Shown here: piece after piece, positions 12,530 to 31,558 of the stretch
Position numbering within the stretch: the stretch's first letter is position 1
How the letters are laid out: each line of letters begins with the position of its first letter
Virus record (IMG/VR): IMGVR_UViG_3300005663_000150
Coordinates: 1-31,558 of that record
Direction: 5' to 3' (one strand)
Length of the DNA: 31,558 nt
DNA from: a virus
Translations under genes and position numbers: made by a program
The notes under the pieces: model-generated
The model's input: only the letters and a program-made list of their open reading frames with translations
The model's database searches: none
What the model was told of the DNA's origin: nothing

Positions 12530-12546
12530 AAATCCTCCTTCTTTAG

Positions 12547-18986: not shown

Positions 18987-19013
18987 ATGTATCCTCTTCT
19001 AATTATTAAGACA

Positions 19014-19038: not shown

Positions 19039-19048
19039 ATATCTTTAT

Positions 19049-19570
19049 TTAAGCGTAATCGTCATCCTTGACCCAGTTCGTACTGAACTGTCGTACCCAG
19101 TCAACGAAGAACGCCACCGAACCACCGATAGTACCGATGTTTGATGTACCGTTGGCGGTAGTAGCTGAAGCAGTCCTTATCTTCAGATACCTTCCATCCT
19201 CCACTTCCTGTGAAGCGAGGTTTGAACCGCTTTTTGAAGCAATGATGTGGATAGCCGTGCGTCCCGTGGCCTGAGCCACAAGATGAGCGGTTCCCATCAC
19301 AACCGAAGCAGTACCGCTTGAGTTCGTCTTCAGAAGACGGAACGGCAACCAGTCTGACTCGTTTGTTGCAGGAGAGGACAAGGTAGCAAGCACCTTGCAA
19401 CCAAACCTTAGAATCTTAATCGGGCCTTTAGGCTGCCAGCGAGTGATTTTGTCACTCGTTGTAGCACTACCAGAAAGAACAATAGCCGTACCTGAGCCAC
19501 CGTGCTTTTGGGTGAGGCCAAACCATTTGCGCTCGACAACTCCAAACATGCTTTCGTCATAAATCGCCAT
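19049..19570 (-). CDS. Putative capsid-associated (decoration-like) protein
   Basis: 173 residues from ATG 19570, chosen over 19603 for GGAGGA eight bases upstream. The sequence is Ser/Thr/Ala/Gly-rich with many strands (GTAIVLSGSATTSDKITRW, RYLKIRTASATTANGTSNI) and ends GGSVAFFVDWVRQFSTNWVKDDDYA. It directly follows the major capsid gene and precedes a terminator, the usual place for a small, abundant head protein. No named family is recognised, so decoration is an inference from place, size and composition. Confidence 0.6.
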   Translation of the reverse strand: MAIYDESMFGVVERKWFGLTQKHGGSGTAIVLSGSATTSDKITRWQPKGPIKILRFGCKVLATLSSPATNESDWLPFRLLKTNSSGTASVVMGTAHLVAQATGRTAIHIIASKSGSNLASQEVEDGRYLKIRTASATTANGTSNIGTIGGSVAFFVDWVRQFSTNWVKDDDYA

Positions 19571-19587
19571 ATTGTCTGTCCTCCTTT

Positions 19588-20547: not shown

Positions 20548-20571
20548 ATCTTATGCCTTTCTCCCGGCACA

Positions 20572-21627
20572 TTACATAATTGACTTCTTATGCCTATCAA
20601 GAAAGTAATCTTCCTCATAGCTACCGGGTTCTTTTTTAGGTTTCTCGAACCCGTCTCCAGCTTTTTCCACAGATGTTGGTTCATCCTTCACCTCTTTATC
20701 AGAGATGCTTTTCGTCTTGGCGATAATGCCCTCAAGCTCAACTATCTTTGCCGTTTTAACCTGAAGGTCATGGAATGCGCCAACTATCTTCGGTATCATG
20801 TTACCCAAAGGATATTGAACGTCTCCCCGCTGAGTTCGGATATTAATTACCGCAGTCGGAGATGTGAGAAAACCAATGTCTTCCCTTGTGAAGCCGTAGT
20901 TATCTACCGCCATCTGGTTTAACGATTCAACCTTCTCGTCATATTCGGGAACTGCTTTTCTCACGTTGTCAAACACAGTTGTTGACACAGCCACGTCTCT
21001 TGTGTTGTCAGTCTGTGCGAACATATACTGCTCCATGAGATGATCCCGAAGATTCCTGAGTTTGATGACATCCTCACCTAACGGGTCTTCACTTTCCTTT
21101 TGCGATATAGCCGTTCTTAACTCTGCCAAAACTCCCTGTGGATTTTCCGCAAACATCTGGTCAACTGTCTTTTGGCCCTGTTGGGGCTGTGGTTGCTGGA
21201 TACGGGTTTCTATCTCCTCAAGCCTCTTTTTGAGTTCGCCCCTTTCCTGAAGCTTGGCGGTGAGACCACCCTGAACAGCGTTGATAGCCAACTGCTGGTC
21301 TTGAGTGAGTCTGCGCCTGTCAAGTTGTGGGACTTCCTCTTTAAGAAGCGCCTGAACCTCCTCGTTGGTATAGGGTATTACGTCCTCTTCCTTCTGAGGC
21401 TCCGCAGGGGTCTCCTCCGGGGGTTTCTCATCGGGTTCAACGGAATCCTTACCTTCAGGTTCGATTTGTTCTGGAGACAACTCATCTTCGTCTCCGTCTG
21501 CTACGGGTTCTGGCTCGTCAGGGGTAGTTGATTCCTCACCCTCTACTTCAGGCGCTTCTTCCTCAACGCTCTCGAACCGCATTCCCTCTGCTATTTCAAC
21601 TTCCTGTTCCTGTTCTTCTGTGCTCAT
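20572..21627 (-). CDS. Scaffolding protein
   Basis: 351 residues from ATG 21627; the preceding CAAGGAGGTTTT is an ideal ribosome site, and a GTG 15 bases earlier lies within it. The first 110 residues are extremely acidic and Pro-rich (Glu/Asp runs). A coiled-coil-like helix follows (KLQERGELKKRLEEIETRIQ, about 130-150), with a Gln-rich linker. The charged C-terminal region ends DRHKKSIM, a basic tail like those that contact the capsid in other scaffolds. Size, charge and place immediately before the capsid gene all fit. Confidence 0.8.
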   Translation of the reverse strand: MSTEEQEQEVEIAEGMRFESVEEEAPEVEGEESTTPDEPEPVADGDEDELSPEQIEPEGKDSVEPDEKPPEETPAEPQKEEDVIPYTNEEVQALLKEEVPQLDRRRLTQDQQLAINAVQGGLTAKLQERGELKKRLEEIETRIQQPQPQQGQKTVDQMFAENPQGVLAELRTAISQKESEDPLGEDVIKLRNLRDHLMEQYMFAQTDNTRDVAVSTTVFDNVRKAVPEYDEKVESLNQMAVDNYGFTREDIGFLTSPTAVINIRTQRGDVQYPLGNMIPKIVGAFHDLQVKTAKIVELEGIIAKTKSISDKEVKDEPTSVEKAGDGFEKPKKEPGSYEEDYFLDRHKKSIM

Positions 21628-21648
21628 AAAACCTCCTTGCACGCCCTG

Positions 21649-21954
21649 TTAAACGGGGTGGTGCTCTATTGGTTCTTCTTTCTCTGCCTCAAAAGCGAAC
21701 TTGCCATTCAAGACAAAGGTCTCAAGTGTCTGTTTTAACTGCTTTATTCCCGCCATCTGGTATTTCATACTTATCATGCCTTCAGAAGTCCATTCTTCAG
21801 GTGGAGATTCAAGAGCCATTTCCCTAAACTCCTCCTCCGCTGCCTTGAAGAATAGCTGCAATGTCGGGTGGTGCAATAGCTCCTGCGCCTCCCGGCCCAA
21901 CTCCTGCTGCTCCTTGGGGCTGCGCTCCTGGTATTCCTGCTCCTGCTCCTCCAA
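21649..21954 (-). CDS. Small helical protein overlapping portal gene
   Basis: I place the start at TTG 21954, where GGAGGTG lies four bases upstream, giving 101 residues. An ATG at 21819, five bases after the portal stop and also behind GGAGGAGGAG, would give only 56. The longer form is a continuous acidic helical protein (LEEQEQEYQERSPKEQQELG; HPTLQLFFKAAEEEF; MKYQMAGIKQLKQTLETF). Its length and spacing match small helical proteins seen after portals in other phages. If right, 131 bases are read in two frames. Function unknown; possibly head assembly. Confidence 0.6.
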   Translation of the reverse strand: MEEQEQEYQERSPKEQQELGREAQELLHHPTLQLFFKAAEEEFREMALESPPEEWTSEGMISMKYQMAGIKQLKQTLETFVLNGKFAFEAEKEEPIEHHPV

Positions 21955-23866
21955 GTCCCACCTCCTGTGGTTTTCTATCCAATATAAACTTAGACGTATT
22001 CCTATATCCAAGGTCTTCCCACATATCCTGAAGAATGTTCTTGATATGCTCTGGCGTGAATATCATCATAGTCTTCTCTCCAAGAAGACTTGCTATTTGT
22101 CCATAGATATTAAGCATTTGCACCTTCTGTTGGTACTGCATATCCTTTGAACCCGTGCCGCTACCAACTTCTATAACGACATCGTACTTGCCGCTTATCA
22201 TCTCTGGATTTATTGTTTCCCATTTCTCGCCAATTTTGATATTCTCTTCCTTATCGAAGTAATCAAGATTCATCTGTACCAAGGCTTCAACCAAATCCTT
22301 AAACCCCGTCTCGGCGAATATCCTAGCCATAAGCTCGGTACGCTTCTGAGAGGCGTTCATTATCTGGGTAATACCAGTGGCGGTCTTGTTAAGGCTTTTA
22401 GCGTCAAGCCCTTGACTGTATTTGGTAACGCCAGTTCTATTGGCCTTTATCTCATCCGAATACTCAAGCATTTTAAGTACGTGAGGTGCTATGGGTTGAA
22501 CGGGAAGGTCGTATATGGCATCACTTGGATTTGTGTCGTACCGGGTAAACGCCACACCGCCGGGCTTGTTGCCGTTGAGATAGCTGTCCACATCAATGCG
22601 ATATTTATTGATTATTCTAAAGCCGTTGTTTTGAAAGTAAATATTATCAAGTATGTACCTGATAAGTGCGGTATGAAGTCTTTGAATCTCCACAACCAGT
22701 TCGGCAACGCTTCTGCCACAAAGCCTGTGCGTGATAAGGATTGGAGATAATACACAGAACGGCGGTTTCTTGTAACTGTTCTTCTTTGGAGTGCCAAGTA
22801 TCTTACGCCCGAACAAAAGCGCTTTCATGGGAACTTTCTCACCGTCTTCATCGTAATCGTTATAATAGCACTCATATATATAGACATGAGTTACCTGGTC
22901 TATCTCTTCCTCATCGGTTACGAAAGAGCGGCCTCCAAGGTCTTCGAGACGGGCTATCTTGAGATGTTCTCCCTCTGTCGTGGCATCGAAATAATCCACC
23001 TCACCCGTAATGTCTTCCCTTGTAAGGCCGTACTTTTTAAGCTTTTTCCAATGCACTTTCTTTCTGTGGGCGCAAACGCTATCGCCTAACTTCTTTGTCC
23101 TTATATCAAACATAAACTCTTCCGGTGGCACGCTCTCTATCACTGGCTTGGATATTTTCTCTACAACGATTTTCCCGTTAAGCTCAAACAAAGCGTCTGG
23201 GTAAAGGTCTATATTCTTCAAAACATCTGTCTTTATTGTTTTCATTCCGCCATCAACAAGTAACGTGGCCTTTACGGAAGTTACTATAAACTTCGGATCT
23301 GAGACTATAAACATGATCTCATCTGCCGAAAGGTCTTTATAGCTTTTCTTCTCGGTAACGTCTCGTTTCTCCCACCAATACTTAACAACGCCCATCTTAT
23401 ACATAAGAGAATCTTTGATAAATTCGTAGATAACTTTAAATCCTTCGTTCTGTTTCTGGATGTCAAAGTTTATCTTCTCTTCCATAAACTTGGCATTGTC
23501 TTCATCCTGCTGACCGCTTCGCCCCGTGATTTCCACCACGTTCTTGCCGCCGTAAAATATCTTCATAAACTCCGGCATAAGTGCTTCTATAGTGTCGTGG
23601 ACATCGGACATAACAACCTGAGAACGTCCAGAGGCGGCTTTGTCTCCCTTTTCGGCAAGGTAGTATTCGTGGAGTTGTGATCGGGTAGTGGTTAGCTTAT
23701 CCATATCCGTCTTCATGGCGGAGAGGGCACGAAGAAGCCTTTTTTCCAAATCAGTTTCTTCAGCACTTGAGGGTATGCCGACATTGCCTCTGGAAGTACC
23801 TGTTATAGAAGTTGACTCTAACGGCTTTGCGTTCTTTGGATATGCGTTTTTATCGTCATATGCCAT
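21824..23866 (-). CDS. Portal protein
   Basis: The 680-residue protein is long, like portals of P22-like and other short-tailed phages. It has a helical N-terminus (LEKRLLRALSAMKTDMDKL), then IEALMPEFMKIFYGGKNVVEI and INFDIQKQNEGFKVIYEFIKDSLMY. The latter resembles the wing of portals that take up internal proteins. A YILDNIYFQNNGFRIINKY segment follows, then the NRTGVTKYSQGLDAKSLNKTATGI stretch common in this class, and KRTELMARIFAE. The last 50 residues are Gly/Ala/Pro-rich (GAGIPGAQPQGAAGVGPGG) and overlap another gene. ATG follows the terminase stop directly (TAAATG). Confidence 0.85.
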   Translation of the reverse strand: MAYDDKNAYPKNAKPLESTSITGTSRGNVGIPSSAEETDLEKRLLRALSAMKTDMDKLTTTRSQLHEYYLAEKGDKAASGRSQVVMSDVHDTIEALMPEFMKIFYGGKNVVEITGRSGQQDEDNAKFMEEKINFDIQKQNEGFKVIYEFIKDSLMYKMGVVKYWWEKRDVTEKKSYKDLSADEIMFIVSDPKFIVTSVKATLLVDGGMKTIKTDVLKNIDLYPDALFELNGKIVVEKISKPVIESVPPEEFMFDIRTKKLGDSVCAHRKKVHWKKLKKYGLTREDITGEVDYFDATTEGEHLKIARLEDLGGRSFVTDEEEIDQVTHVYIYECYYNDYDEDGEKVPMKALLFGRKILGTPKKNSYKKPPFCVLSPILITHRLCGRSVAELVVEIQRLHTALIRYILDNIYFQNNGFRIINKYRIDVDSYLNGNKPGGVAFTRYDTNPSDAIYDLPVQPIAPHVLKMLEYSDEIKANRTGVTKYSQGLDAKSLNKTATGITQIMNASQKRTELMARIFAETGFKDLVEALVQMNLDYFDKEENIKIGEKWETINPEMISGKYDVVIEVGSGTGSKDMQYQQKVQMLNIYGQIASLLGEKTMMIFTPEHIKNILQDMWEDLGYRNTSKFILDRKPQEVGLGGAGAGIPGAQPQGAAGVGPGGAGAIAPPDIAAILQGSGGGV

Positions 23867-25558
23867 TTAAACAATCCCCATTTCCATGTATACTGGTTTA
23901 CGATTCATATCAATCGGGTCTGTGTATTTAATGCCGAAGTTCGTCCAACGATAAAGACTTTCGGGAAAGTCATCGTCTTCTTTCTTTGGCTTGCCTTTGT
24001 CGTCAAATACCCACCGCATCATCTGGTGGCGGTGCATGTTGCAGGTATCGAAGAAAAATAGCGTTGGCAATCCATTTGGCCCCTTAAACTTTCGCCTGAT
24101 ATTATCTATTCCACTGGATTTGTCCTTACTACCCACTTCTAAAATTATGCCGTGCTTGGATAGCCTGTTTCGGATAATGGTAAATGAGTTCTCCATATTG
24201 CCGCTATTTGTCATGCGGTTCTTCATAAAGCCCAAATCACCTTTACTTAAAGGATCAATAAAGGCCATCTCAAGCCTCCAAGTATTCTTGAGTTTCTTCC
24301 TTATAATGTCATCGGCAATGTCTTCAGAAGACATATTTTCAAACACCTCGTCAATAACGTACTCCATTGAAGACGGGTTAATGGTGTAGTACGATATGGC
24401 GTGTGGTTTTTCAAGATGAAAGTCAATGCCAGCCACAACGGGCCAATCAGTTGGTATGTCAAAAGGCTCGACATCGTGAATGCCGGGGTTGTATTCCTTA
24501 ACGACTCTGCCTATTAAAGACTTGAACTGACCAAATAAACGGGGCATACGGTCTTCATCTGCAATGTCCTGCACAAATCTTTCAATATAAAGATTGGGTA
24601 TAAGGTCTCCCCACATAATATCGCCGTCTATCTCGCCGTGAAGCTTGATAAGCATGTTCTTTAGCACGTCCGGCCCCTGCTTGCTTTTCATACTCTCTTG
24701 AAAATAAATCTCTATATTCTCATCACTTAAACCCGTCTTTTTCAATTCCGCCATATCGTGATTGTAAAGATAGGGGTTGTCCCAGATATTAACGTCATCA
24801 ACTATGCCCACATCGGGCCTACCCGAAAGCACGAGTTCGTCAAGTACCCAAGCCTCTCTAAGGGGAGTTGTTGGCATTAACACCTTGCCTCCCGTCATAA
24901 ACAGGCCACGGGCCATAGCAGACCAGATGGGATAGGGCGGGGGTTCGTCAGGCCACCAGCCATCCCCAAGCCAGGACTCGAAGAGCTTAACGTCCTGGTC
25001 ATGGGTCATTATCTCAATGGTGGAGCCGTTATGCCACTTCCATAAGAACTCCACCCCCTGGCTGTTCTTTCTTGTCGTGTACGCCCCTCTGGGAGCCCAT
25101 TTCTTGAGTTCAGGGATGATCGTTTGACCAATAGAGTGCGTCCAGTCCTCACCAGTTACCCTGATACGAACGGGGGGGTCTTTACCAAGGGAGGATTTCT
25201 TAAAGAACTCGCCATTGACCTCTACGGCATCAGTTGTTCCACGTGGAACACGGCTCCAAGGTTCATAACCCAGACACCACGAAATAACGATATTTGAGGC
25301 AACAGCGGTCTTGCCAACCTTATTGGATACGGGGGCGAGAACTATTTTCTTGCCTTGATGGAATAGATCAATTATGGTTTGCTGGTAGGGGTTGTCTCGT
25401 CTGGAGGACTTGAATGGCTCGAAAAAATAGGTAAGATTCTCTTCCTTAAATTGGGAGGAAAGCCTTACCTTTTCCTGAAACTCCTGCTTTAGCTTGGCAA
25501 GTTCTTCACGTTTCTCCTGAAGCTCTGTTTTCTTAACGTGTTTCAGGCAACGCCACAC
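23867..25558 (-). CDS. terL: Terminase large subunit
   Basis: 563 residues as written. Walker A is APVSNKVGKTA (75-85). The acidic pair is in WWPDEPP (204-205) and LMPTTPL (228-233) is the coupling motif. Nuclease acidic residues lie in AGIDFHLEK (Asp379) and FIDPLSKGD (Asp435), with a late Asp cluster. It packages DNA into the prohead and cuts it. The GTG at 25558 sits inside the GGAGGTG ribosome site, so it can hardly be the start. The frame has no other ATG, GTG or TTG nearby; CTG 25546, nine bases after the site, is the best candidate. The promoter just upstream (25585-25613) predicts a 32-base leader. Confidence 0.9.
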   Translation of the reverse strand: MWRCLKHVKKTELQEKREELAKLKQEFQEKVRLSSQFKEENLTYFFEPFKSSRRDNPYQQTIIDLFHQGKKIVLAPVSNKVGKTAVASNIVISWCLGYEPWSRVPRGTTDAVEVNGEFFKKSSLGKDPPVRIRVTGEDWTHSIGQTIIPELKKWAPRGAYTTRKNSQGVEFLWKWHNGSTIEIMTHDQDVKLFESWLGDGWWPDEPPPYPIWSAMARGLFMTGGKVLMPTTPLREAWVLDELVLSGRPDVGIVDDVNIWDNPYLYNHDMAELKKTGLSDENIEIYFQESMKSKQGPDVLKNMLIKLHGEIDGDIMWGDLIPNLYIERFVQDIADEDRMPRLFGQFKSLIGRVVKEYNPGIHDVEPFDIPTDWPVVAGIDFHLEKPHAISYYTINPSSMEYVIDEVFENMSSEDIADDIIRKKLKNTWRLEMAFIDPLSKGDLGFMKNRMTNSGNMENSFTIIRNRLSKHGIILEVGSKDKSSGIDNIRRKFKGPNGLPTLFFFDTCNMHRHQMMRWVFDDKGKPKKEDDDFPESLYRWTNFGIKYTDPIDMNRKPVYMEMGIV

Positions 25559-25584
25559 CTCCGCGATTTATATATCTCTAATTT

Positions 25585-25613
25585 GTTATACATCATTTTT
25601 CCTTCAATGTCAA
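25585..25613 (-). promoter_or_regulatory. Sigma-70-type promoter before large terminase
   Basis: On the minus strand TTGACA (25613-25608) is followed after exactly 17 bases by TATAAC (25590-25585), one mismatch from consensus. A start near 25578 would give a short leader carrying GCGGAGGTG. It lies five bases beyond the end of the tRNA-like gene, so large terminase and the structural genes can be expressed apart from the small genes upstream. Confidence 0.75.
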
Positions 25614-25618
25614 GGCTG

Positions 25619-25695
25619 TGGTGGCAGGGCCGGGACTCGAACCCGATTTAAGATGGGCATGAGCCACCTTGAGATTCCAAGACCTCCCCCCTGCA
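25619..25695 (-). tRNA. tRNA-like gene, anticodon CAT, with encoded CCA
   Basis: The minus strand folds as a cloverleaf: acceptor TGCAGGG / CCCTGCC, then discriminator A and an encoded CCA. The D arm is GAGG / TCTC with TTGG in the loop. The anticodon arm GGTGG-CTCATGC-CCATC has T33 and anticodon CAT (Met, or Ile if modified). The variable loop is TTAAA and the T arm is TCGGG-TTCGAGT-CCCGG. Odd points: the first acceptor pair is T-C, positions 8 and 14 are not the usual T and A, and one extra base lies between D and anticodon stems. A 1:72 mismatch is a feature of bacterial initiator tRNA, but the three G-C pairs of initiators are not all present (TGG/CCA). It may be functional or degenerate. 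Confidence 0.65.
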
Positions 25696-25699
25696 TCCA

Positions 25700-25852
25700 T
25701 TATTCCTTCACCTCACAAGTTACGGGTTTGCCATCGTCAACGACCATCATAGGGCCGCCCTCAGATGGAACGTGGTATAACACGCCATTGATACATAAAT
25801 CTGCGGGGCCTGTTATCATGAGCACCAGCAATATGGACAGGAGGAGTTTCAT
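25700..25852 (-). CDS. Small exported protein with signal peptide
   Basis: The 50-residue frame starts with a typical signal sequence (MKLLLSILLVLMITGPADLC). Short Lys-bearing n-region, hydrophobic core to residue 14 and a possible cleavage near Ala17, or Cys20 as first residue of a lipoprotein-like site, though the lipobox is imperfect. The mature part (INGVLYHVPSEGGPMMVVDD) is a short strand-rich peptide with one more Cys. The ATG overlaps the previous stop as ATGA. This is the last gene of the mini-gene chain and lies four bases before the tRNA-like gene. Function unknown. Confidence 0.6.
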   Translation of the reverse strand: MKLLLSILLVLMITGPADLCINGVLYHVPSEGGPMMVVDDGKPVTCEVKE

Positions 25853-25959
25853 GGCGTACACAGCCCTGAAGAAGCCCATATAGAATACAAAAAATTAAGA
25901 GCTATGGCTAAAAATATAATAAATAATATAGGTGCTAAATCATCACTGTTAAATATCAT
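25849..25959 (-). CDS. 36-residue single-helix membrane peptide
   Basis: The frame MIFNSDDLAP then continues with about 17 hydrophobic residues (ILFIIFLAIALNFLYSI) and a short tail WASSGLCTP. It overlaps both neighbours as ATGA (starts on the previous stop, ends on the next start), which strongly suggests genuine coupled translation despite its size. A small inner-membrane peptide is likely, for example an exclusion or lysis-timing factor, but no family is recognised. Confidence 0.55.
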   Translation of the reverse strand: MIFNSDDLAPILFIIFLAIALNFLYSIWASSGLCTP

Positions 25960-26099
25960 ACGTCCTCCAAGTCAGAGCCACACCAAGGGCAGAAACTTCT
26001 AGTATGGTTGATAACTTCAAATGGCCCCTTCCACTCGCCGGGCTTGTGTACGTACCAACTAGTCTCTCTTTCCCACTCTATACATGAGCACCATTTCAT
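25956..26099 (-). CDS. 47-residue zinc-ribbon-like protein
   Basis: The frame starts MKWCSCIEWERETSWYVHKP and ends with SFCPWCGSDLEDV. Cys4-x-Cys6 and Cys37-x2-Cys40-Gly form two knuckles about 30 residues apart, the spacing of a small zinc ribbon with five Trp. It overlaps the neighbours on each side as ATGA. Small phage proteins ending FCPWCG are common among early genes; the role is unknown. Confidence 0.65.
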   Translation of the reverse strand: MKWCSCIEWERETSWYVHKPGEWKGPFEVINHTRSFCPWCGSDLEDV

Positions 26100-26281
26100 T
26101 TAAACACCCCCCTGTCTTGTGATTGCCAAGAAAGACCGCCATCGGGAATCCTGATATATCTTTTCCATGCCAAACACATATAGTCAGCTCTTTTCTCACA
26201 CTCCCGCACATTATCGCTATCGCACCCCACGCAAGGGCTTTCGGGGGTGTCTTTGTTATGCTTGGGGTATCTTATGGGCAT
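26096..26281 (-). CDS. 61-residue Cys-rich protein
   Basis: From ATG 26281 (AAGGCGGGAAA upstream) the frame is MPIRYPKHNKDTPESPCVGC, with Cys17-x2-Cys20-x7-Cys28-x7-Cys36, a plausible four-cysteine zinc site, followed by a basic/aromatic segment (LAWKRYIRIPDGGLSW). A longer GTG frame to 26323 runs through the previous gene and is not preferred. It overlaps the upstream gene by ten bases and the downstream one as ATGA. No family recognised. Confidence 0.65.
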   Translation of the reverse strand: MPIRYPKHNKDTPESPCVGCDSDNVRECEKRADYMCLAWKRYIRIPDGGLSWQSQDRGVFK

Positions 26282-26424
26282 TTTCCCGCCTTGTAATCGC
26301 TTACCCCCATGAAGTACAGACACTCCTCCTCGGCACTCACGGCCTCGTCACGACACTTAAACGGGCCTTTGAGCCTTACACCGTCCATTACCACGTAATA
26401 CTCGTCTCCGTCTACCTCTATCAT
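26272..26424 (-). CDS. 50-residue hypothetical protein
   Basis: The frame starts MIEVDGDEYYVVMDGVRLKG and has Cys24, Cys35 and Cys49. The order strand-turn-strand then helix (FKCRDEAVSAEEECLYFMG) looks like a folded mini-domain. GGCGGGGGCGTGAA lies before the ATG. The stop overlaps the next start by ten bases (ATGCCCATAA). It lies in the chain of coupled mini-genes; its product is acidic, unlike the basic Cys-rich neighbour downstream. Confidence 0.6.
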   Translation of the reverse strand: MIEVDGDEYYVVMDGVRLKGPFKCRDEAVSAEEECLYFMGVSDYKAGKCP

Positions 26425-26466
26425 TTCACGCCCCCGCCACCATGTAGCTTATCGTTAAGTTATTCA

Positions 26467-26580
26467 TTACACCACCTTTATTCCAAAACAACATGAACAT
26501 ATACAGTCATCCACGCCTACCCATAAGTCCTCAAATCCATATAACTTATGGCATATATCACACGGCCTTGTCATGTTCAT
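26467..26580 (-). CDS. 37-residue Cys-rich peptide, zinc-knuckle-like
   Basis: The frame MNMTRPCDICHKLYGFEDLW then VGVDDCICSCCFGIKVV carries Cys7-x2-Cys10 and a Cys26-x-Cys28-x-Cys30-Cys31 cluster, enough for a zinc knuckle. Its ATG overlaps the upstream stop as ATGA (start 26580, stop of the neighbour at 26577-26579). A 13-codon frame follows from its stop to the next gene, which I regard as spacer. Function unknown. Confidence 0.55.
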   Translation of the reverse strand: MNMTRPCDICHKLYGFEDLWVGVDDCICSCCFGIKVV

Positions 26581-26726
26581 GCTTCACCCCCTGTCCATAT
26601 GGTCTTATTATTAGGCTCCCACTCCCATCCACATGCTATCTGTATATATGGCTCACTACAATTACATAACTGACCCTTAATATCATTAGGACACCCAATA
26701 CATACCCGTTTATCAATGTATATCAT
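26577..26726 (-). CDS. 49-residue Cys-rich protein, first of mini-gene chain
   Basis: Preceded by ATAAGGAGACCTT, a good ribosome site. The frame starts MIYIDKRVCIGCPNDIKGQL and has Cys9-x2-Cys12, Cys21-x-Cys23 and Cys32, then Trp-rich ACGWEWEPNN. This is a compact metal-binding pattern (ferredoxin-like spacing is not met). It is the first gene after the small terminase and a G/C-rich hairpin, with a possible promoter about 20-45 bases upstream. Ends with ATGA overlap. Confidence 0.65.
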   Translation of the reverse strand: MIYIDKRVCIGCPNDIKGQLCNCSEPYIQIACGWEWEPNNKTIWTGGEA

Positions 26727-26741
26727 AAGGTCTCCTTATAT

Positions 26742-26770
26742 AACATATTGGTTATAGACCCCTTTGTGAA
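26742..26770 (-). promoter_or_regulatory. Possible sigma-70-type promoter for mini-gene chain
   Basis: TTCACA (26770-26765), 17 bases, then TATGTT (26747-26742) on the minus strand: 5 of 6 and 4 of 6 matches. Transcription would begin just before the ribosome site of the gene at 26726. Weaker than the two terminase promoters, so listed as tentative. Confidence 0.35.
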
Positions 26771-26804
26771 AAAATTGTCTGAGGTGGATACTTAATAATG
26801 AGCA

Positions 26805-26828
26805 GGGGGGTGGGGTGTGTATCCCCCC
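26805..26828. other. G/C-tract hairpin between small terminase and mini-genes
   Basis: A run of six G (26805-26810) pairs with six C (26823-26828) around a 12-base loop, inside a 183-base non-coding gap (26727-26909). Further G runs follow (26812-26815, 26838-26840, 26851-26855), so the plus strand could instead form a G-quadruplex. It may attenuate transcription after the small terminase gene or mark a packaging site. No U-tract follows on either strand. Confidence 0.45.
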
Positions 26829-26909
26829 TACCCCTCGTGGGTGTGTGTATGGGGGTCAATGTCTGTGTCTGATAAGGTATATTATGTAAAGTTATTGAAT
26901 ATATCATTA

Positions 26910-27398
26910 TTAATCAATGCCCTTTTCTTCACAACTGGCTATATCTTGCTCTAGCTTCTTGATATTACTATCCATAACGTGTAGTTCTTGTACGCTATGC
27001 TCGTATGAACGTACATTGACATTGCTGGTGGCCTTGCCCTGGACCAGCATGGATTTATCGGTAAGAATGGCAAAAGCTGTACTTAACTGTTGGATTTCAC
27101 TAGGTTTTTCAGGGATGAGGTTATCATTTATGATAGCATGGTCTATGTTGCTTAGAATACCCGCGCGAACATTGTCAATTAATTCGGCTTCTTTATCCCT
27201 GTAAGTCTTTAATAACTCACCATTCTTTTTAAGCCTGCTAATCATTGCATATATATTTGAGGTATCACATCCGACACGCTCTGCAATGTCCTTAACAGGC
27301 ATATCCCCTTGAATGAGGGCTACGGTTAGTTCTTGATCTATCTTATATCCAGCTGTCTTGAGAGGTTTGGAAGGTTTCTCTGTCTGTGCCTTAGACAT
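26910..27398 (-). CDS. terS: Small terminase-like HTH protein
   Basis: The 162-residue protein has a basic N-terminal tail, an HTH at about 33-56 (MPVKDIAERVGCDTSNIYAM) and a helical middle containing QLSTAFAILTDKSMLVQGKAT. That phrase is typical of small terminases and related phage HTH proteins. The end is a coiled coil (MDSNIKKLEQDIASCEEKG). It would recognise the packaging site and recruit the large subunit. A stray HTH regulator of other function is possible, because the large terminase is about 1.3 kb away with eight elements between. There is no ribosome site: the ATG coincides with the predicted transcription start, so the message looks leaderless. Confidence 0.75.
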   Translation of the reverse strand: MSKAQTEKPSKPLKTAGYKIDQELTVALIQGDMPVKDIAERVGCDTSNIYAMISRLKKNGELLKTYRDKEAELIDNVRAGILSNIDHAIINDNLIPEKPSEIQQLSTAFAILTDKSMLVQGKATSNVNVRSYEHSVQELHVMDSNIKKLEQDIASCEEKGID

Positions 27399-27404
27399 GA
27401 GCTA

Positions 27405-27433
27405 ATTATACTTGAATGGTGTAAGTATGTCAA
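27405..27433 (-). promoter_or_regulatory. Perfect sigma-70 promoter, leaderless small-terminase message
   Basis: On the minus strand TTGACA (27433-27428), exactly 17 bases, then TATAAT (27410-27405): a full consensus match. Six bases (TAGCTC) separate the -10 box from the ATG at 27398, so the predicted first base is the A of the start codon. No Shine-Dalgarno sequence is possible in such a message. Confidence 0.85.
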
Positions 27434-27444
27434 TAGGTTTATAC

Positions 27445-27458
27445 GTCTCTATCGAGAC
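27445..27458. promoter_or_regulatory. Inverted repeat just upstream of small-terminase -35
   Basis: GTCTC-TATC-GAGAC is a perfect 5-bp inverted repeat about 47-60 bases before the predicted start. Its arms resemble those of the palindromes at 27906, 27925 and 28006, but with different spacing. It could be an activator site for the late promoter, or a simple hairpin. Confidence 0.4.
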
Positions 27459-27612
27459 AAGTCATTTGTTGGGAGTCATTGGGCATCTAAGCACATACAC
27501 GAAACACGTGACGTGGTCTGAAGGACTAGGGGCATCTTTATTATAAGCACTTGAGACTGGGGCTTGTCAAATAAGGTGAACTTATAGGTGCGTAATGTTT
27601 GACATTCAATGC

Positions 27613-27798
27613 CTTGCAGGGATATTTCATTCATTTCTATTGCGATAGAGTCTCAGTTCTAATTAAGAACGGTTATTAACTGGGGGATTTGTGGGGGCTG
27701 GCTATCCCTGCAAGCCATCATGCGTATCACTAGCGGATCACCTTACAAAGCACAGTAGGATGGCCCTGTCCGTACTCATGGGGTGTTCACCAGCCCCC
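27613..27798. other. Nested long-range inverted repeats, possible structured RNA
   Basis: This gene-free stretch has three perfect pairings: CTTGCAGGGATA (27613-27624) with TATCCCTGCAAG (27703-27714); GGGGGCTGG (27693-27701) with CCAGCCCCC (27790-27798); and, inside that, GCCATC (27714-27719) with GATGGC (27759-27764). Small hairpins lie between (CTAT-TGCG-ATAG; GTTCT-AATTA-AGAAC). The first and second sets could be alternative folds, as in a switch. A TTGACA at 27599-27604 with a weak -10 (GATATT) could start a rightward transcript. A replication origin or packaging-related site is an alternative. Confidence 0.4.
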
Positions 27799-27855
27799 GA
27801 AAAGTATGTGCTACCTTCCACATTCATTATAACATACCCGCGATCCTTTGTGTAA

Positions 27856-27882
27856 GGGCTGGTAGTCACAAGCCCGCTTGTG
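27856..27882. other. Overlapping small hairpins
   Basis: GGGCT (27856-27860) can pair with AGCCC (27871-27875), and CACAAGC (27867-27873) with GCTTGTG (27876-27882). The two stems exclude each other. They lie just before the first palindrome of the sigma-54 region; role unknown. Confidence 0.35.
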
Positions 27883-27905
27883 TATCATCAATCGGCTTTC
27901 AGTAG

Positions 27906-27937
27906 TCTCAAAATGAGATTTCAGTCTCAAAATGAGA
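27906..27937. promoter_or_regulatory. Two tandem palindromic activator sites (UAS-like)
   Basis: TCTCAAAATGAGA occurs at 27906-27918 and again at 27925-27937, 19 bases apart (about two helical turns). Each is a 5-bp inverted repeat around AAA. They lie about 170-200 bases before the predicted start of the sigma-54 promoter, a normal distance for sites of a bacterial enhancer-binding protein. Repressor operators would look similar. Confidence 0.65.
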
Positions 27938-27958
27938 TTTAAACATAAAATGCTATTT

Positions 27959-27971
27959 AATCAATACGTTA
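27959..27971 (+). promoter_or_regulatory. IHF-type bend site
   Basis: AATCAATACGTTA matches WATCAANNNNTTR at every defined position and has AT-rich DNA upstream. It lies between the distal palindromes and the proximal one, where IHF bends DNA at sigma-54 promoters. Confidence 0.55.
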
Positions 27972-28005
27972 GCGACTAGCAAGTCTTGATAATAAGTAAA
28001 ACCAG

Positions 28006-28018
28006 TCTCAAAATGAGA
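28006..28018. promoter_or_regulatory. Third palindromic activator site
   Basis: TCTCAAAATGAGA again, exactly 100 bases after the first copy; the match extends to 23 bases including flanks. It is centred about 95 bases before the predicted start. A half-site (ATCTCAAAA, 28068-28076) lies closer to the core. Confidence 0.65.
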
Positions 28019-28080
28019 TTTCAGTCAATTTGTCTTCACGATGGCCAGTTGATTTATAACGATTATTTATCTCAAAACTT

Positions 28081-28096
28081 TGGCACGGAGCTTGCA
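28081..28096 (+). promoter_or_regulatory. Sigma-54 (-24/-12) promoter
   Basis: TGGCACGGAGCTTGCA matches the sigma-54 consensus TGGCACG-N4-TTGCA without a mismatch, with GG (28082-28083) and GC (28094-28095) separated by ten bases. Transcription should start near 28107, about 20 bases before the ATG at 28127. Palindromes and an IHF site upstream complete the arrangement of an enhancer-dependent promoter. Confidence 0.8.
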
Positions 28097-28126
28097 TCTA
28101 TACAGGCAGAAAGTGAGGGCGCGAAC

Positions 28127-28363
28127 ATGGCAAAGTCAATAACAGTCAGGTTTCACGAAGCGGGCCGCAAGTTCTATTTCACAGACAAGGGCATGGAAGC
28201 CCGGAGTTCAAGGAATGGAATAGAGAAGGCACACATGCTGTTTGAGGCCGTGGAGGCCGTGACAGGCCGTCAGTACCATTTCGGGACTAAGAGGTTCAAG
28301 GCATTTGCAAGAGGCTTTAACGGAGCATGTTCACATGATGGCGAGAGGACAATATACGCATAG
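28127..28363 (+). CDS. First gene of rightward early operon, hypothetical
   Basis: 78 residues from ATG 28127 (GTGAGGGCGCGAAC upstream). An open frame from 27986 runs through the sigma-54 promoter and is rejected. The protein is basic (MAKSITVRFHEAGRKFYFTD, later FGTKRFKAFARGFNG), with a strand-turn-strand start and a helix (EKAHMLFEAVEAVTG). It might bind nucleic acid. As first product of an enhancer-controlled operon it may act early on the host. No family recognised. Confidence 0.75.
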   Translation: MAKSITVRFHEAGRKFYFTDKGMEARSSRNGIEKAHMLFEAVEAVTGRQYHFGTKRFKAFARGFNGACSHDGERTIYA

Positions 28364-28410
28364 CTTAAACATTCCCGGTAGGGCTCTATGCCTTGCCGGG
28401 AGTAGTTAAG
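28364..28410 (+). other. Intergenic hairpin after first early gene
   Basis: Starting directly after the stop, CTTAA (28364-28368) pairs with TTAAG (28406-28410), and within it TCCCGG pairs with CCGGGA around a 19-base loop holding a smaller GGGC/GCC stem. There is no U-tract, so it is more likely an mRNA-processing or stability hairpin than a terminator. Confidence 0.45.
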
Positions 28411-28442
28411 GAATGAACACTAACCAGATGGAGGATGAGGAC

Positions 28443-28595
28443 ATGACGAAAACAAATGAAGATAAGTTTATTAAAAAGGTAGGAATGATTATAAGCAAAC
28501 TCATGGACTTGAGAGCCTTGGGGGCTGATTCGGCAACGGTGCAGCATATTATCGATAGCGTCAATGACCTTGAGGGTGACACTATCCGCTCCTAG
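28443..28595 (+). CDS. 50-residue helical protein
   Basis: Start at ATG 28443 behind GGAGGATGAGGAC; an ATG at 28413 would add ten acidic residues. The frame MTKTNEDKFIKKVGMIISKL continues with two amphipathic helices (LMDLRALGADSA, VQHIIDSVNDLEG). The leader plus first codons (AACCAGA-GGAGG-TGAGGACATGAC) are nearly identical to those at 28814-28838 before another gene, showing duplication. Likely a small helical, possibly dimeric, accessory protein; no family recognised. Confidence 0.6.
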   Translation: MTKTNEDKFIKKVGMIISKLMDLRALGADSATVQHIIDSVNDLEGDTIRS

Positions 28596-28601
28596 CCCTT
28601 G

Positions 28602-28624
28602 CCTTGGCTCTACAGGGGCCAGGG
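28602..28624 (+). other. Intergenic hairpin
   Basis: CCTTGGC (28602-28608) pairs with GCCAGGG (28618-28624) across a 9-base loop (one G-T pair), directly before the repeated leader at 28621. Similar GC-rich hairpins occur between other early genes. Confidence 0.4.
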
Positions 28625-28670
28625 TTGGCGATAGGAGTTAAACCTTAATAGAGAGGGGTTTGGATATGAA
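28621..28670 (+). repeat. Repeated leader, copy 1
   Basis: Fifty bases shared with 29039-29088. Identical are the first 18 (AGGGTTGGCGATAGGAGT) and the last 20 (GAGAGGGGTTTGGATATGAA), with a 12-base variable centre of equal length. It carries the ribosome site and ATG of the gene at 28666. Confidence 0.85.
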
Positions 28671-28794
28671 CGTAGAGAATATTGCAAGGCTGGTGGCTGT
28701 TAAGGTCAGATTATTCGACCCTAAACCCTTAACGTATGACGAGCAAAAGGACCTTAGCTTGTTATTGCACAAAATATGGGAAGAAGAGGCCTAA
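28666..28794 (+). CDS. 42-residue hypothetical protein
   Basis: The frame MNVENIARLVAVKVRLFDPK continues PLTYDEQKDLSLLLHKIWEEEA: two short helices and a proline break. GAGAGGGG lies six bases before the ATG in the repeated leader. The following TAACATG starts the next gene, and that junction is itself duplicated at 29328-29355. Too short for the usual ORF cut-off but well supported by leader and spacing. Confidence 0.6.
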   Translation: MNVENIARLVAVKVRLFDPKPLTYDEQKDLSLLLHKIWEEEA

Positions 28795-28795
28795 C

Positions 28796-29038
28796 ATGCC
28801 AGAGCTAATCATAAACCAGACGGAGGGTGAGGACATGACCAGAACAGAACTTAAAAGGAAAGCACAAGCAGAGATACTTGATGCGGCTATGCAGTCAACA
28901 ATTAGAACGGCGGAGATGAACCTTGACGGCTTAAATGATAAAGACATGGCAGACTTGATGGCTGAAATGGATAGCCAGCTCAAGCGTATTGAGAAGATGT
29001 TTGGATACGTACCAGGTTCATGGATGAGAGGGGCATAG
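28796..29038 (+). CDS. 80-residue helical protein, duplicated start
   Basis: From ATG 28796 (MPELII) the frame continues NQTEGEDMTRTELKRKAQAE, then a long helix with IRTAEMNLDGLNDKDMADLM and DSQLKRIEKMFG, ending VPGSWMRGA. MPELII recurs at the start of the gene at 29337, and GGAGGGTGAGGAC before Met14 (28835) recurs before 28443. Translation could therefore start at either ATG, giving 80 or 67 residues. An acidic coiled-coil-like accessory protein; no family recognised. Confidence 0.6.
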   Translation: MPELIINQTEGEDMTRTELKRKAQAEILDAAMQSTIRTAEMNLDGLNDKDMADLMAEMDSQLKRIEKMFGYVPGSWMRGA

Positions 29039-29088
29039 AGGGTTGGCGATAGGAGTATTAACCAGCACGAGAGGGGTTTGGATATGAA
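29039..29088 (+). repeat. Repeated leader, copy 2
   Basis: Second copy of the 50-base leader at 28621, again ending in the ATG and first bases of a gene, but the gene that follows is unrelated to the one after copy 1. Confidence 0.85.
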
Positions 29089-29335
29089 AAAGTGGGAAGT
29101 CAGTGGATGGCATGGGCATATCAATATCATTACGGATGATGAGATTATAGCAACAATAACAGACATTACCGCTAACGGATACGCTAACGCCCGCCTCATA
29201 GCCGCCGCACCGGACATGCTGGAACTGCTCAAGATGTATCCATGGGAATGCACTTGCAAAGAGGACGGGAGATTAACAGAGGGTACTTGTTATGGATGTC
29301 GGTTAACGGCCCTCGTTGAAAGCCTGGAGGCCTAA
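29084..29335 (+). CDS. 83-residue protein with ANARLIAAAP motif
   Basis: Start at ATG 29084 behind GAGAGGGG. An N-terminal strand pair (KKWEVSGWHGHINIITDDEI, IATITDITA) is followed by NARLIAAAPDMLELLKMY, a motif widespread in small phage early proteins. A Cys-rich end then follows (CTCKEDG..GTCYGC), able to bind zinc, so this is a fused version of the module at 29779. The role of the family is unknown. The last codons lead into the duplicated CCTAACATG junction. Confidence 0.75.
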   Translation: MKKWEVSGWHGHINIITDDEIIATITDITANGYANARLIAAAPDMLELLKMYPWECTCKEDGRLTEGTCYGCRLTALVESLEA

Positions 29336-29336
29336 C

Positions 29337-29462
29337 ATGCCAGAGCTAATCATACGTTGCCCGATATGTAACGGGGTGTGCGCTATTCATGGCAGGTTCG
29401 TGGAGTGCAGGGTTCATGGGTTCTTCATTGGAGCGGATTTATTAACGGTTATTGAGTATTAA
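29337..29462 (+). CDS. 41-residue zinc-ribbon-like protein
   Basis: The frame MPELIIRCPICNGVCAIHGR continues FVECRVHGFFIGADLLTVIEY, with Cys8-x2-Cys11, Cys15 and Cys24, plus His18 and His27 as further ligands. GGAGGCCTAAC precedes the ATG. The first six residues and 28 bases around the start are the same as at 28796. A small metal-binding early protein; function unknown. Confidence 0.6.
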   Translation: MPELIIRCPICNGVCAIHGRFVECRVHGFFIGADLLTVIEY

Positions 29463-29485
29463 CCTTTTAAATGTAGGGTTTGATT

Positions 29486-29719
29486 ATGGCAATAGATATG
29501 AGAAAAGAAAGCGCATCAGGAAGAAAGCAATGGTACGGTGTAGGAATAAGTTATGCCAAGATTCATGCAAATGCAATATCCAGCTATATGACTGAACTAG
29601 CACACGGTTCCACAGGTGAACGGATAGCTTTAATGGAAGAGGTAGATTTCCATATAACAAAGTTATCTGAGAGATTGGATACACTAAGGGAAATACTTGC
29701 TATAGAACGCAAGGCCTAG
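29486..29719 (+). CDS. 77-residue helical protein
   Basis: From ATG 29486 (TAGGGTTTGATT upstream): MAIDMRKESASGRKQWYGVG, then two helices (AKIHANAISSYMTELAHG; ERIALMEEVDFHITKLSERLDTLREILAIERKA), the second with heptad hydrophobics suggesting a coiled coil. A TTG at 29480 would add two residues. It looks like a small dimerising protein. No family recognised. Confidence 0.65.
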   Translation: MAIDMRKESASGRKQWYGVGISYAKIHANAISSYMTELAHGSTGERIALMEEVDFHITKLSERLDTLREILAIERKA

Positions 29720-29730
29720 CATAAGGGAGA

Positions 29731-29749
29731 GCCGGATCAACCACCCGGC
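29731..29749 (+). other. Intergenic hairpin
   Basis: GCCGG (29731-29735) pairs with CCGGC (29745-29749) around a 9-base loop between two early genes; no U-tract follows. Confidence 0.4.
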
Positions 29750-29778
29750 GAGGGATAACCGCAACAATGGAGGGTATC

Positions 29779-30027
29779 ATGGAAACATGGGAAGTAGGAT
29801 TAGGGCCTCACAAGGCTGTTATTTATTCAGATGATGGAACCATTGCCAGCGTTACAGATGAAATGGTGGACTGGCAAGCAAATGCCCGCCTCATTGCCGC
29901 CGCACCTGAACTGCTGGACATGCTCAAGGATGTACTTAATGATTACCTCGATTTTAATCATCCTTGCGAACTTTCAAGCATTACCATTAACAAGGTTAAG
30001 GCTCTTATATCAGAGGCCGCCTCATGA
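29779..30027 (+). CDS. 82-residue protein, paralogue of the 29084 gene
   Basis: Start at ATG 29779 behind GGAGGGTATC. The strand pair (METWEVGLGPHKAVIYSDDG) and the motif NARLIAAAPELLDMLK repeat the plan of the 29084 product, with clear DNA similarity in the motif region (GCCCGCCTCAT-GCCGCCGCACC). Here the end is helical (SSITINKVKALISEAAS) without the Cys cluster. It overlaps the next gene as ATGA. Confidence 0.75.
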   Translation: METWEVGLGPHKAVIYSDDGTIASVTDEMVDWQANARLIAAAPELLDMLKDVLNDYLDFNHPCELSSITINKVKALISEAAS

Positions 30028-30125
30028 GCCAATGCACGGACTGCCAGGGGTATCACGAAACAGGGTTAAGAACCTGCCCGCACTGTGGGTGCTGGCTGAG
30101 TATTCCTTTAACCAATGGAGGGTAA
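30024..30125 (+). CDS. 33-residue zinc-ribbon-like peptide
   Basis: The frame MSQCTDCQGYHETGLRTCPH continues CGCWLSIPLTNGG, with Cys4-x2-Cys7 and Cys18-x2-Cys21-Gly. This four-cysteine pattern is typical of minimal ribbons. The ATG overlaps the previous stop, and its last codons contain the GGAGGG ribosome site of the following gene. That compactness argues for genuine coupled translation. Confidence 0.6.
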   Translation: MSQCTDCQGYHETGLRTCPHCGCWLSIPLTNGG

Positions 30126-30129
30126 GAAG

Positions 30130-30261
30130 ATGAAACTCATAATTCTTGAAGAAGTTGAAACCGCATCAGAGCTTGTTGATTTACTTCAACATATTGCAGG
30201 TTTAATTGAAGGTGGGAACACATCCGGATACCACCCCGGCTGGAGAATAGAACAAGCCTAA
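30130..30261 (+). CDS. 43-residue protein with SGYHPGWRI motif
   Basis: The frame MKLIILEEVETASELVDLLQ continues HIAGLIEGGNTSGYHPGWRIEQA. A helix leads to a loop with Gly/Tyr/His/Pro/Gly/Trp, a motif I have seen at the end of many small phage early proteins. GGAGGGTAAGAAG lies before the ATG. Function unknown. Confidence 0.6.
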   Translation: MKLIILEEVETASELVDLLQHIAGLIEGGNTSGYHPGWRIEQA

Positions 30262-30330
30262 CCCCCCGACCTCCGGGCGTGTCTCGTACATGCTCCGGGG
30301 CCAGTGGTTAGCTGGAGAAAGAGAGGGATT

Positions 30331-30501
30331 ATGAGAGTTAAAAAGATACCTAAAACATCAAGACTCTATCAGAGATATGCAAAGGGCAGCGAAGTTCTCT
30401 ATCATGCAACGGGCAAAGATAAGCTAGGCTATAAAGTAAACATTGTGGGAACAAAAGCTTTTATTGATAAAACCACTAACCACGGAGGTGGCCATGAGTA
30501 A
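30331..30501 (+). CDS. 56-residue basic protein, copy 1 of paralogue pair
   Basis: From ATG 30331 (GAGAGGGATT upstream; a GTG at 30304 lies in the leader). The frame MRVKKIPKTSRLYQRYAKGS is followed by EVLYHATGKDKLGYKVNIVG and a divergent tail ending HGGGHE. It is nearly identical over 41 residues to the gene at 31053. Basic and strand-rich; possibly nucleic-acid binding. Overlaps the next gene by eight bases (ATGAGTAA). Confidence 0.7.
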   Translation: MRVKKIPKTSRLYQRYAKGSEVLYHATGKDKLGYKVNIVGTKAFIDKTTNHGGGHE

Positions 30502-30805
30502 TAAATTCAGCAAGTTAAAAGGGGTAGAAGTTGAAGTAATCAATCCAAGCGGTACAAGCGGTAAATGTTTTGTTGCTGATATTGATTACGAAAAAGGTAT
30601 AACTATCAAGAGTCTTGAAGAACAAAAAAACGTTCTGTGCCTGAATAAATATAGTATTGCAAGCTACCTCAATTACGAGGATACTTTCAAATATCTTGTG
30701 GCACGAATCAAAGAAGGAAAGATTTCGCGTAAAAATACTTTCAGGTATTTAACTGGTGATGAATCACCCATGAGAGGAAAACAAGCATCTTGTGCTTTTG
30801 AATAG
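30494..30805 (+). CDS. 103-residue hypothetical protein
   Basis: Start at ATG 30494 behind GGAGGTGGCC; a frame reaching 30443 lies inside the previous gene. The first 50 residues look like a small beta-barrel (GVEVEVINPSGTSGKCFVAD, GITIKSLEEQKNVLCLN), the rest helical (DTFKYLVARIKEGKIS). SH3-like or OB-like folding is possible but unproven. No catalytic motif. Confidence 0.65.
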   Translation: MSNKFSKLKGVEVEVINPSGTSGKCFVADIDYEKGITIKSLEEQKNVLCLNKYSIASYLNYEDTFKYLVARIKEGKISRKNTFRYLTGDESPMRGKQASCAFE

Positions 30806-30849
30806 CCATTAACGCCGTGCGTGTTCACCCTTTAACTGGAGGTGGTGTC

Positions 30850-31026
30850 GTGGGAAACATGAGCTATTGCAGATTTGAGAATACACTTAGAGATTTACGG
30901 GATTGTTGGGAAGCTCTCGGCGAAATGCCTGACACAAAAGAGTTAAGCCCTAGCGAGAAAGAAGCCATGAAAACATTAATCCTACTTTGTGGCGACATTT
31001 ACGGTGACTTCGAGGACTTTGAATAA
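30850..31026 (+). CDS. 58-residue protein of MSYCRFENT type
   Basis: GTG 30850 is seven bases after GGAGG and gives MGNMSYCRFENTLRDLRDCW; ATG 30859 would remove three residues. The SYCRFENT...DLRDC opening recurs in small proteins of many phages and plasmids. The end (EKEAMKTLILLCGDIYGDFEDFE) is helical and acidic. Four cysteines are scattered, without ribbon spacing. Function unknown. Confidence 0.65.
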   Translation: MGNMSYCRFENTLRDLRDCWEALGEMPDTKELSPSEKEAMKTLILLCGDIYGDFEDFE

Positions 31027-31052
31027 CAATAGCAATCGAAAGGAGCGAGTAA

Positions 31053-31208
31053 ATGAGAGTTAAAAAGATACCTAAAACATCTAGGTTATATCAGAGATAT
31101 GCCAAGAACAATGAAGTTCTCTATCATGCAACAGGCAAAGATAAGTTGGGCTATAAAGTAAACATTGTAGGAACGCTGGATTTTATTAAAAAATATGAGG
31201 AGGTGTGA
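31053..31208 (+). CDS. 51-residue basic protein, copy 2 of paralogue pair
   Basis: AAAGGAGCGAGTAA precedes the ATG. The frame MRVKKIPKTSRLYQRYAKNN followed by EVLYHATGKDKLGYKVNIVG matches the 30331 product almost residue for residue, with a different end (TLDFIKKYEEV). Codon differences are mostly silent (for example TCA AGA CTC versus TCT AGG TTA), so selection on the protein seems to act. Its end supplies the GAGGAGGTG ribosome site of the next gene. Confidence 0.7.
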   Translation: MRVKKIPKTSRLYQRYAKNNEVLYHATGKDKLGYKVNIVGTLDFIKKYEEV

Positions 31209-31209
31209 G

Positions 31210-31374
31210 ATGAGCTACTTTGGACATGGGACAGTTAAGGAAGATATTTTAATCGGTCTAAGGGAAGTTGAAGAAAGGTATGGCTATACTCCGGCACAAA
31301 TGATTGCGCTTGTTATTAGAGTTTTACAATATTACTCTGATGATATTTCTATGGATAAGGAGAATGGCCAATGA
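31210..31374 (+). CDS. 54-residue helical protein
   Basis: Starts one base after the previous stop, behind GAGGAGGTGTGAG. The frame MSYFGHGTVKEDILIGLREV continues EERYGYTPAQMIALVIRVLQ and an acidic tail. Two helices are likely. It overlaps the following HTH gene as ATGA. No family recognised. Confidence 0.6.
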   Translation: MSYFGHGTVKEDILIGLREVEERYGYTPAQMIALVIRVLQYYSDDISMDKENGQ

Positions 31375-31558
31375 AACCACAAACAAGTAAGGTACGAGCG
31401 CATCTGATGAAAACAGGCTCTATCACGCCCATACACGCCTTTAAGTTCATGGGCATCTACCGCTTGGCTTCACGGATATGCGAGTTGAGGGCGTCCGGCA
31501 TGATGATCGTAACCAAGCAGAAGAAGTCTGCACGGGGCAAGATGTATTGCAAGTACAC
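31371..31558 (+). CDS. Helix-turn-helix protein, cut by window edge
   Basis: The frame starts MKPQTSKVRAHLMKTGSITP and runs off the window with 62 complete codons. HLMKTGSITPIHAFKFMGIY then RLASRICELRASGMMIVTKQ is the pattern of a short winged-helix family common in phage genomes (GSITP.EA....G..RLAARI..LR..G). The following KKSARGKMYCKY should be the wing. It may regulate the early operon or assist replication. Start supported by ATGA overlap and GGAGAATGGCCA upstream. Confidence 0.75.
   Translation, partial: MKPQTSKVRAHLMKTGSITPIHAFKFMGIYRLASRICELRASGMMIVTKQKKSARGKMYCKY

Follow-up and report, generated by a model that had tools for sequence, protein, structure and literature searches.

Can a bacteriophage place a block of its genes under an enhancer-dependent promoter read by the sigma-54 polymerase of its host, and whose activator would then switch it on? 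Enhancer-dependent sigma-54 promoters are textbook knowledge: the polymerase opens them only together with an activated AAA+ protein, the upstream activator sites lie some 80–200 bp from the start, and an IHF site between the enhancer and the core is common, if not obligatory. The question is raised by a virus record of 31,558 bases in IMG/VR, classed as linear and analysed here at its full length (the window), for which an original prediction made from the letters alone had described a complete promoter of this type in front of the early genes. What apparently is new is the use of such promoters, and of host activators, by phages. In the open-access literature we found no account of early phage genes being driven by sigma-54 promoters; for Salmonella, four genes of the Fels-2 prophage are given as lower in the rpoN strain than in the rpoN mutant in the part of the source consulted (PMC3844500).

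The window consists of two gene blocks that diverge from a central gap (Table 1). The leftward block encodes holin, endolysin, virion proteins, the major head protein, an SU10-type portal and, by a weak match, the terminase, and the rightward block carries small ORFs up to the end of the record. A family match was obtained for two of the five rightward proteins scanned (Pfam and PHROG; one of the five against Pfam only), and from gene order and layout this block is probably an early operon. Its first protein has no match in Pfam or PHROG, no relative among viral contigs in a peptide-pattern scan for exact short peptides and only a chance-level match (E 9) among named phages. Upstream of the ATG, the reading frame of its gene stays open as far as a TTG at 27986, so that on the plus strand an open frame from there to 28363 spans palindrome 3 together with the sigma-54 core, and the ATG at 28127 represents a choice of start. 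Scans for exact short peptides likewise revealed no relative of the terminase among viral contigs and none of the portal among genome contigs, blastn of positions 27400–31558 against named phages gave no match, and no Rfam family matched within the window. Within the structural block, positions 15267–17392 (minus strand) hold a glycosyltransferase-like gene and a gene of unknown families, weakly similar to genes of bacterial loci, and a tRNA with a CAT anticodon (25619–25695, minus strand) adjoins the terminase gene.

Table 1. Features of the window around the gap between the two gene blocks; distances with a minus sign are relative to the predicted start at 28107.
Feature	Positions	Strand	Remarks
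Gap between leftward and rightward blocks	27399–28126		728 bases
Opposing sigma-70 promoter of the leftward structural block	27405–27433	−	TTGACA-N17-TATAAT; 12 of 12 hexamer bases, 17-bp spacer
Putative enhancer palindrome 1, TCTCAAAATGAGA	27906–27918	+	exact copy, centre about −195
Putative enhancer palindrome 2, TCTCAAAATGAGA	27925–27937	+	exact copy, centre about −176, 19 bp after copy 1
IHF-like site, AATCAATACGTTA	27959–27971	+	consensus match only, between palindromes 2 and 3
Putative enhancer palindrome 3, TCTCAAAATGAGA	28006–28018	+	exact copy, centre about −95, 100 bp after copy 1
Half-palindrome, TCTCAAAA	28070–28077	+	directly before the −24 element
Sigma-54 core, TGGCACGGAGCTTGCA	28081–28096	+	TGGCACG-N4-TTGCA, GG-N10-GC
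First rightward gene	28127–28363	+	78 aa

The sigma-54 consensus is TGGCACG-N4-TTGCW, and the core was assessed as GG-N10-GC within this string. As originally predicted, TGGCACGGAGCTTGCA at 28081–28096 matches the −24/−12 consensus without a mismatch over its 12 specified bases and lies shortly before the ATG at 28127; the GG at 28082–28083 and the GC at 28094–28095 predict transcription from 28107. A form of it, tGGcacg and tTGCt, is given for Desulfovibrio in the part of the source consulted (PMC4641369). An exact core occurred in none of 5,000 dinucleotide shuffles of 27399–28126, in which the best match had one mismatch and was seen in 13 shuffles. One could still argue that the core arose by chance, being a rare match of the kind that could be selected if many DNA stretches are scanned, and that transcription of the rightward genes starts from a sigma-70 promoter, for instance at the upstream site 27599–27626 (TTGACA-N16-GATATT, 10 of 12 bases). 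Sigma-70-like sites are, however, common here by chance (20 found, shuffle mean 13.0), while the exact core occurs once in the window, close in front of the first start codon, the next-best matches there having two mismatches, and its joint chance with the three palindromes is very small; we regard a chance core as quite improbable. The leftward block is faced by a perfect sigma-70 promoter, and different host polymerases may therefore serve the two blocks. From this promoter (27433–27405) transcription is predicted to start at the very ATG (27398) with which the first leftward gene begins; the gene possibly gives a leaderless transcript, and its product of 162 aa has a weak match to the MarR family.

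The palindrome TCTCAAAATGAGA occurs exactly at 27906, 27925 and 28006 and at no other place within the window, which bears out three upstream copies with the first and the third 100 bases apart, and the 13-mer was absent from all 5,000 dinucleotide shuffles of 27399–28126. Copies 1 and 3 have 23 bases in common, AGTCTCAAAATGAGATTTCAGTC, and give the impression of a duplication, 100 bp apart, of paired 19-base units; the 21-base repeat of the window was found in no other viral contig. All three identical palindromes lie at the distance of upstream activator sites and could be bound by an activator. Palindrome 3 is separated from the core by 62 bp, as compared with 50–77 bp in bacterial and phage examples from scans that allowed 48–78 bp. 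Regarding the IHF consensus that had been called between the palindromes, match and position are correct, yet with three matches in the window against 1.76 expected the site is near chance and, therefore, weak on its own.

The palindrome resembles the binding site of SypG. In the part of the source consulted, the SypG site is given as TTCTCANNNTGMDWN, the LuxO site as TTGCAWWWTGCAA, and SypG-responsive regions of qrr1 are placed between −175 and −60 (PMC10162802). All three window copies, GTCTCAAAATGAGAT, fit TTCTCANNNTGMDWN as given there except for the first base, that is with one mismatch, and share the 5-N3-5 geometry with the SypG promoters of Vibrio (syp polysaccharide locus, qrr1), while the LuxO-type site has the same 13-bp 5-N3-5 layout with different arm sequence (PMC10162802, as far as seen). 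In contrast to the SypG promoters, the promoter of the window belongs to a phage, precedes phage genes and carries three fully symmetric copies together with the IHF-like site. The palindrome string does not appear in the parts seen of the main text of two sigma-54 regulon papers, whose motifs are given in figures (PMC6615313, PMC4641369).

Searching 257 Gb of bacterial and archaeal contigs for the pair of palindrome and core (TCTCANNNTGAGA-N48..78-TGGCAC-N5-TTGC) yielded at least 116 stretches, compared with about 14 expected from uniform bases (2 strands × 31 gaps × 257e9 / 4^20). Among the 80 matches listed are Vibrio/Aliivibrio, Ignavibacteria, Planctomycetota, relatives of Bdellovibrio, Acidobacteria, Clostridia and others. 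Of the 116 genome loci, fetched as stretches of up to 8 kb, 39 carry a GAFTGA-type sigma-54 activator gene, whose product has a T-x-Y-R recognition helix in 36 cases. The loci are not independent, since a single Vibrio/Aliivibrio orthologue seems to account for 18 of the 39, and helices of the T-x-Y-R type also occur in other activator groups; the helix is for both reasons supportive, not diagnostic. In Vibrio/Aliivibrio the exact TCTCAN3TGAGA with a core mostly stands in front of a glycosyltransferase-like gene, at about 1.1 kb from the preceding SypG-like activator gene, presumably sypG itself. Inspected by eye at 80 of the 116 loci, the genes downstream of the pair include glycosyltransferases and proteins with signal-peptide-like starts, and proteins with such starts, again judged by eye, follow the pair promoters of Ignavibacteria. 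The sigma-54 promoters of the latter often have paired palindromes 19–20 bp apart before the core, like copies 1 and 2 of the window, although there the paired sites lie 50–72 bp before the core, whereas in the phage the pair is further away and a third site takes the position 62 bp before the core.

The same pattern was found in seven stretches of viral contigs (G001–G007) against two for a reversed control. These contigs were chosen for at least one pattern match and contain one palindrome and one core by construction, so the evidence is only the excess, and they represent about five lineages, because G001 and G005 share the stretch and G002 and G004 are near copies there. Beyond the pattern, sites with no more than one mismatch were counted. 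An end region of 5.3 kb with small ORFs in G006 (L142:13500–18808) has 34 palindromes, with none for five control motifs, and 20 sigma-54 cores, with 0–2 for three controls; in G007, a 15-kb region with small ORFs (L141:2000–17000) has 42 palindromes (controls 0–3) and seven cores (controls 0–1). Elsewhere, 40 kb in G006 and in G007 gave 0–1 palindromes and 1–2 cores per 20 kb, and the 40 kb at the other end of G006 held two palindromes and three cores in total. Of the exact palindromes, the whole record of G007 contains 14, 13 of them within 26.3–40.8 kb. Palindromes and cores exceed controls in the same stretches in G006, G007 and G001. They are not strictly tied, since the 13.5 kb between the two parts of G006 hold only two palindromes but 12 cores (controls 0–2). 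G006 encodes a major head protein, tail sheath and RIIB, and G007 a DNA polymerase and clamp loader. Both resemble the window in having small-ORF regions with palindromes and cores in the same stretch and a GC content of about 0.46; they differ in having many more sites and in being different phages, without protein similarity in the parts compared. The layout of the window recurs in G004, in which a leftward block with a P22/SU10-type portal gene is followed by a stretch with the palindrome and three rightward cores, also present in G002. By eye, G007 moreover shows two sites followed by a sigma-70-like TTGCCT-N17-TATACT. That the pair recurs in bacteria as well as in unrelated phages speaks for an enhancer-type sigma-54 promoter as first proposed, with the IHF part remaining its weak member. 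A portal alignment gave 80 relatives, the best of at least 599, with best segments of 30–35% identity, too distant for the conservation of the promoter to be assessed from them. The exact core is absent from 714,817 bases of these 80 distant relatives, indicating that the trait is not general in the portal family, with the proviso that many of the stretches are short and may miss the matching gap.

The palindrome is also found outside any sigma-54 context, which bears on a further explanation, namely that the copies in the divergent gap serve a phage regulator as operators or a replication origin as iterons, whether or not the core is real. Tandem TCTCAN3TGAGA is present in 67 viral contigs (L266–L332), picked irrespective of sigma-54 and mostly without a nearby core: at up to one mismatch, a core lies on 3 of 134 sides of the tandem palindromes against 18 of 2,280 random sides. 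In 48 of the 67 contigs the tandem palindromes are inside an ORF of at least 120 aa, and in 44 of these 48 they encode S[HQ]xE repeats; the other 19 contigs have a core (up to one mismatch) on 3 of 38 sides, two of which are one element in two contigs. A general role of the palindrome as a phage enhancer was accordingly rejected, the 67 contigs showing no clear link to sigma-54 and most being coding repeats; judged from these sequences, TCTCAN3TGAGA has at least one other, sigma-54-independent use in phages. At L300:8508–8957, in a distant relative whose portal is 34% identical to that of the window, the tandem palindromes are inside the gene of a 149-aa protein that looks winged-helix-like by eye, and in-gene copies of this kind are possibly origin sites inside an initiator gene. 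The GC skew of the window turns near 27 kb, which would suit an origin, though gene direction turns there too. Against operators or iterons stands the intergenic position of the window's palindromes, −95 to −195 relative to a perfect core, the longest open frame across the tandem pair being 49 codons and thus unlike the in-gene repeats; against them stand also the joint excess in G006, G007 and G001 and that of the pair over uniform chance in bacterial genomes. We consider this explanation unlikely, if less so than a chance core. The reading that we prefer, and hold with reasonable confidence, is that the sigma-54 promoter drives the rightward, probably early, operon and that the palindromes are sites for a SypG-like activator of the Fis type, most likely that of the host.

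The window had been said to encode no activator, and indeed no Sigma54_activat domain was found in it. The same holds for 46 further viral records with tandem cores (0 of 47 in all), which indirectly supports an activator of the host, with the reservation that all these records may be fragments. The seven palindrome contigs gave a single Sigma54_activat match, inside a clamp-loader-like AAA protein, and none of HTH_8 over the cut-off. A linear record of 31,558 bases is often a fragment, so that absence from the window is no proof, and a real sigma-54 promoter could be served by an activator encoded on the missing part of the phage genome; against the domain searches just described, which the fragment status of the records qualifies in turn, we judge such a phage-encoded activator to be rather doubtful. 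The host was sought by blastn with positions 11600–31558. It was not found among 30 candidate genomes, where the sole hits were two palindrome pairs in one Ignavibacteria genome. Larger searches, with two candidates scored per genome, returned short hits in 5 of 391 genomes of the Ignavibacteria class (one of them, G009, being also the genome with hits among the 30), in 11 of 395 genomes from the phylum of G022 and in 6 of 290 from the phylum of G014, the host being found in neither phylum. For the Ignavibacteria class, the palindrome pairs are the only link to the window among the 391 genomes searched. None of 20 blastn hit loci inspected showed a repeat array such as CRISPR, three hits in the phylum of G022 having come with no locus, and tetranucleotide correlation named no host.

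How common sigma-54 cores are in phages was addressed by a scan of viral contigs for two cores 10–40 bp apart, with no palindrome required. At least 120 viral stretches were obtained, where about one would be expected if the collection comprised some 58 Gb, an assumed size; the suggestion that phage promoters of this kind are rare is, consequently, doubtful. On re-reading, the pattern was confirmed in 118 of 119 loci (L343–L461, counted without de-replication and including cases on the same contig such as L406 and L416), and 113 of 122 array strings are distinct. The base before TGGCAC is T or C in 135 of 159 array cores and the base after TTGC is A or T in 145 of the 159, so bases outside the search pattern carry the sigma-54 signature. 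Arrays lie outside ORFs of at least 100 aa in 114 of 160 cases, compared with 945 of 2,380 random places. The contigs bearing them range in GC from 0.34 to 0.67 and show tandem, divergent and convergent cores, with start-to-start spacings that favour 26, 43–46 and 54 bp. Six of ten large ORFs from nine array loci matched head, packaging or connector families; relatives among named phages, sought for three of the 119 loci, were short patches for two and none for the third. The exact TCTCAN3TGAGA occurs in only 2 of 122 viral array regions, from which it follows that most such phages must use other activators or that the arrays do something else. They could be promoters or sinks for the sigma-54 polymerase.

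For the phage of the window, a sequence of events can be envisaged from these elements. Host sigma-54 polymerase would sit in a closed complex at 28081–28096 until a Fis-type activator that recognises a SypG-like site has been switched on and occupies the palindromes. Two adjacent dimers (27906 and 27925) and the nearer one (28006) would load a hexamer, which would reach and remodel the holoenzyme by DNA looping, perhaps helped by IHF at 27959–27971, and the rightward operon would wait on the host state that the activator reads. Since the activator is most likely the host's, the gene block would be on only in cells in which it is active, and similar promoters in other uncultured bacterial viruses suggest that, in some viruses, gene expression may be coupled to the condition of the host. 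More broadly, we tentatively propose, at somewhat less than even confidence, that a large and undescribed set of phages puts gene blocks under host sigma-54 polymerase and host activators, some of them (the phage of the window, G006 and G007) with a SypG-type enhancer and others with core arrays. If true, part of the infection by users of the SypG-type enhancer would hang on a surface, secretion or polysaccharide programme of the host, and tandem and convergent core arrays could drive many transcripts or sequester sigma-54 polymerase. The sequence test used here yields many more candidates. As sigma-54 needs an activated AAA+ protein, the phage operon would, unlike operons under sigma-70, be conditional on host physiology, and if real, this promoter would provide a direct and testable link between the signalling state of the host and the development of the phage.
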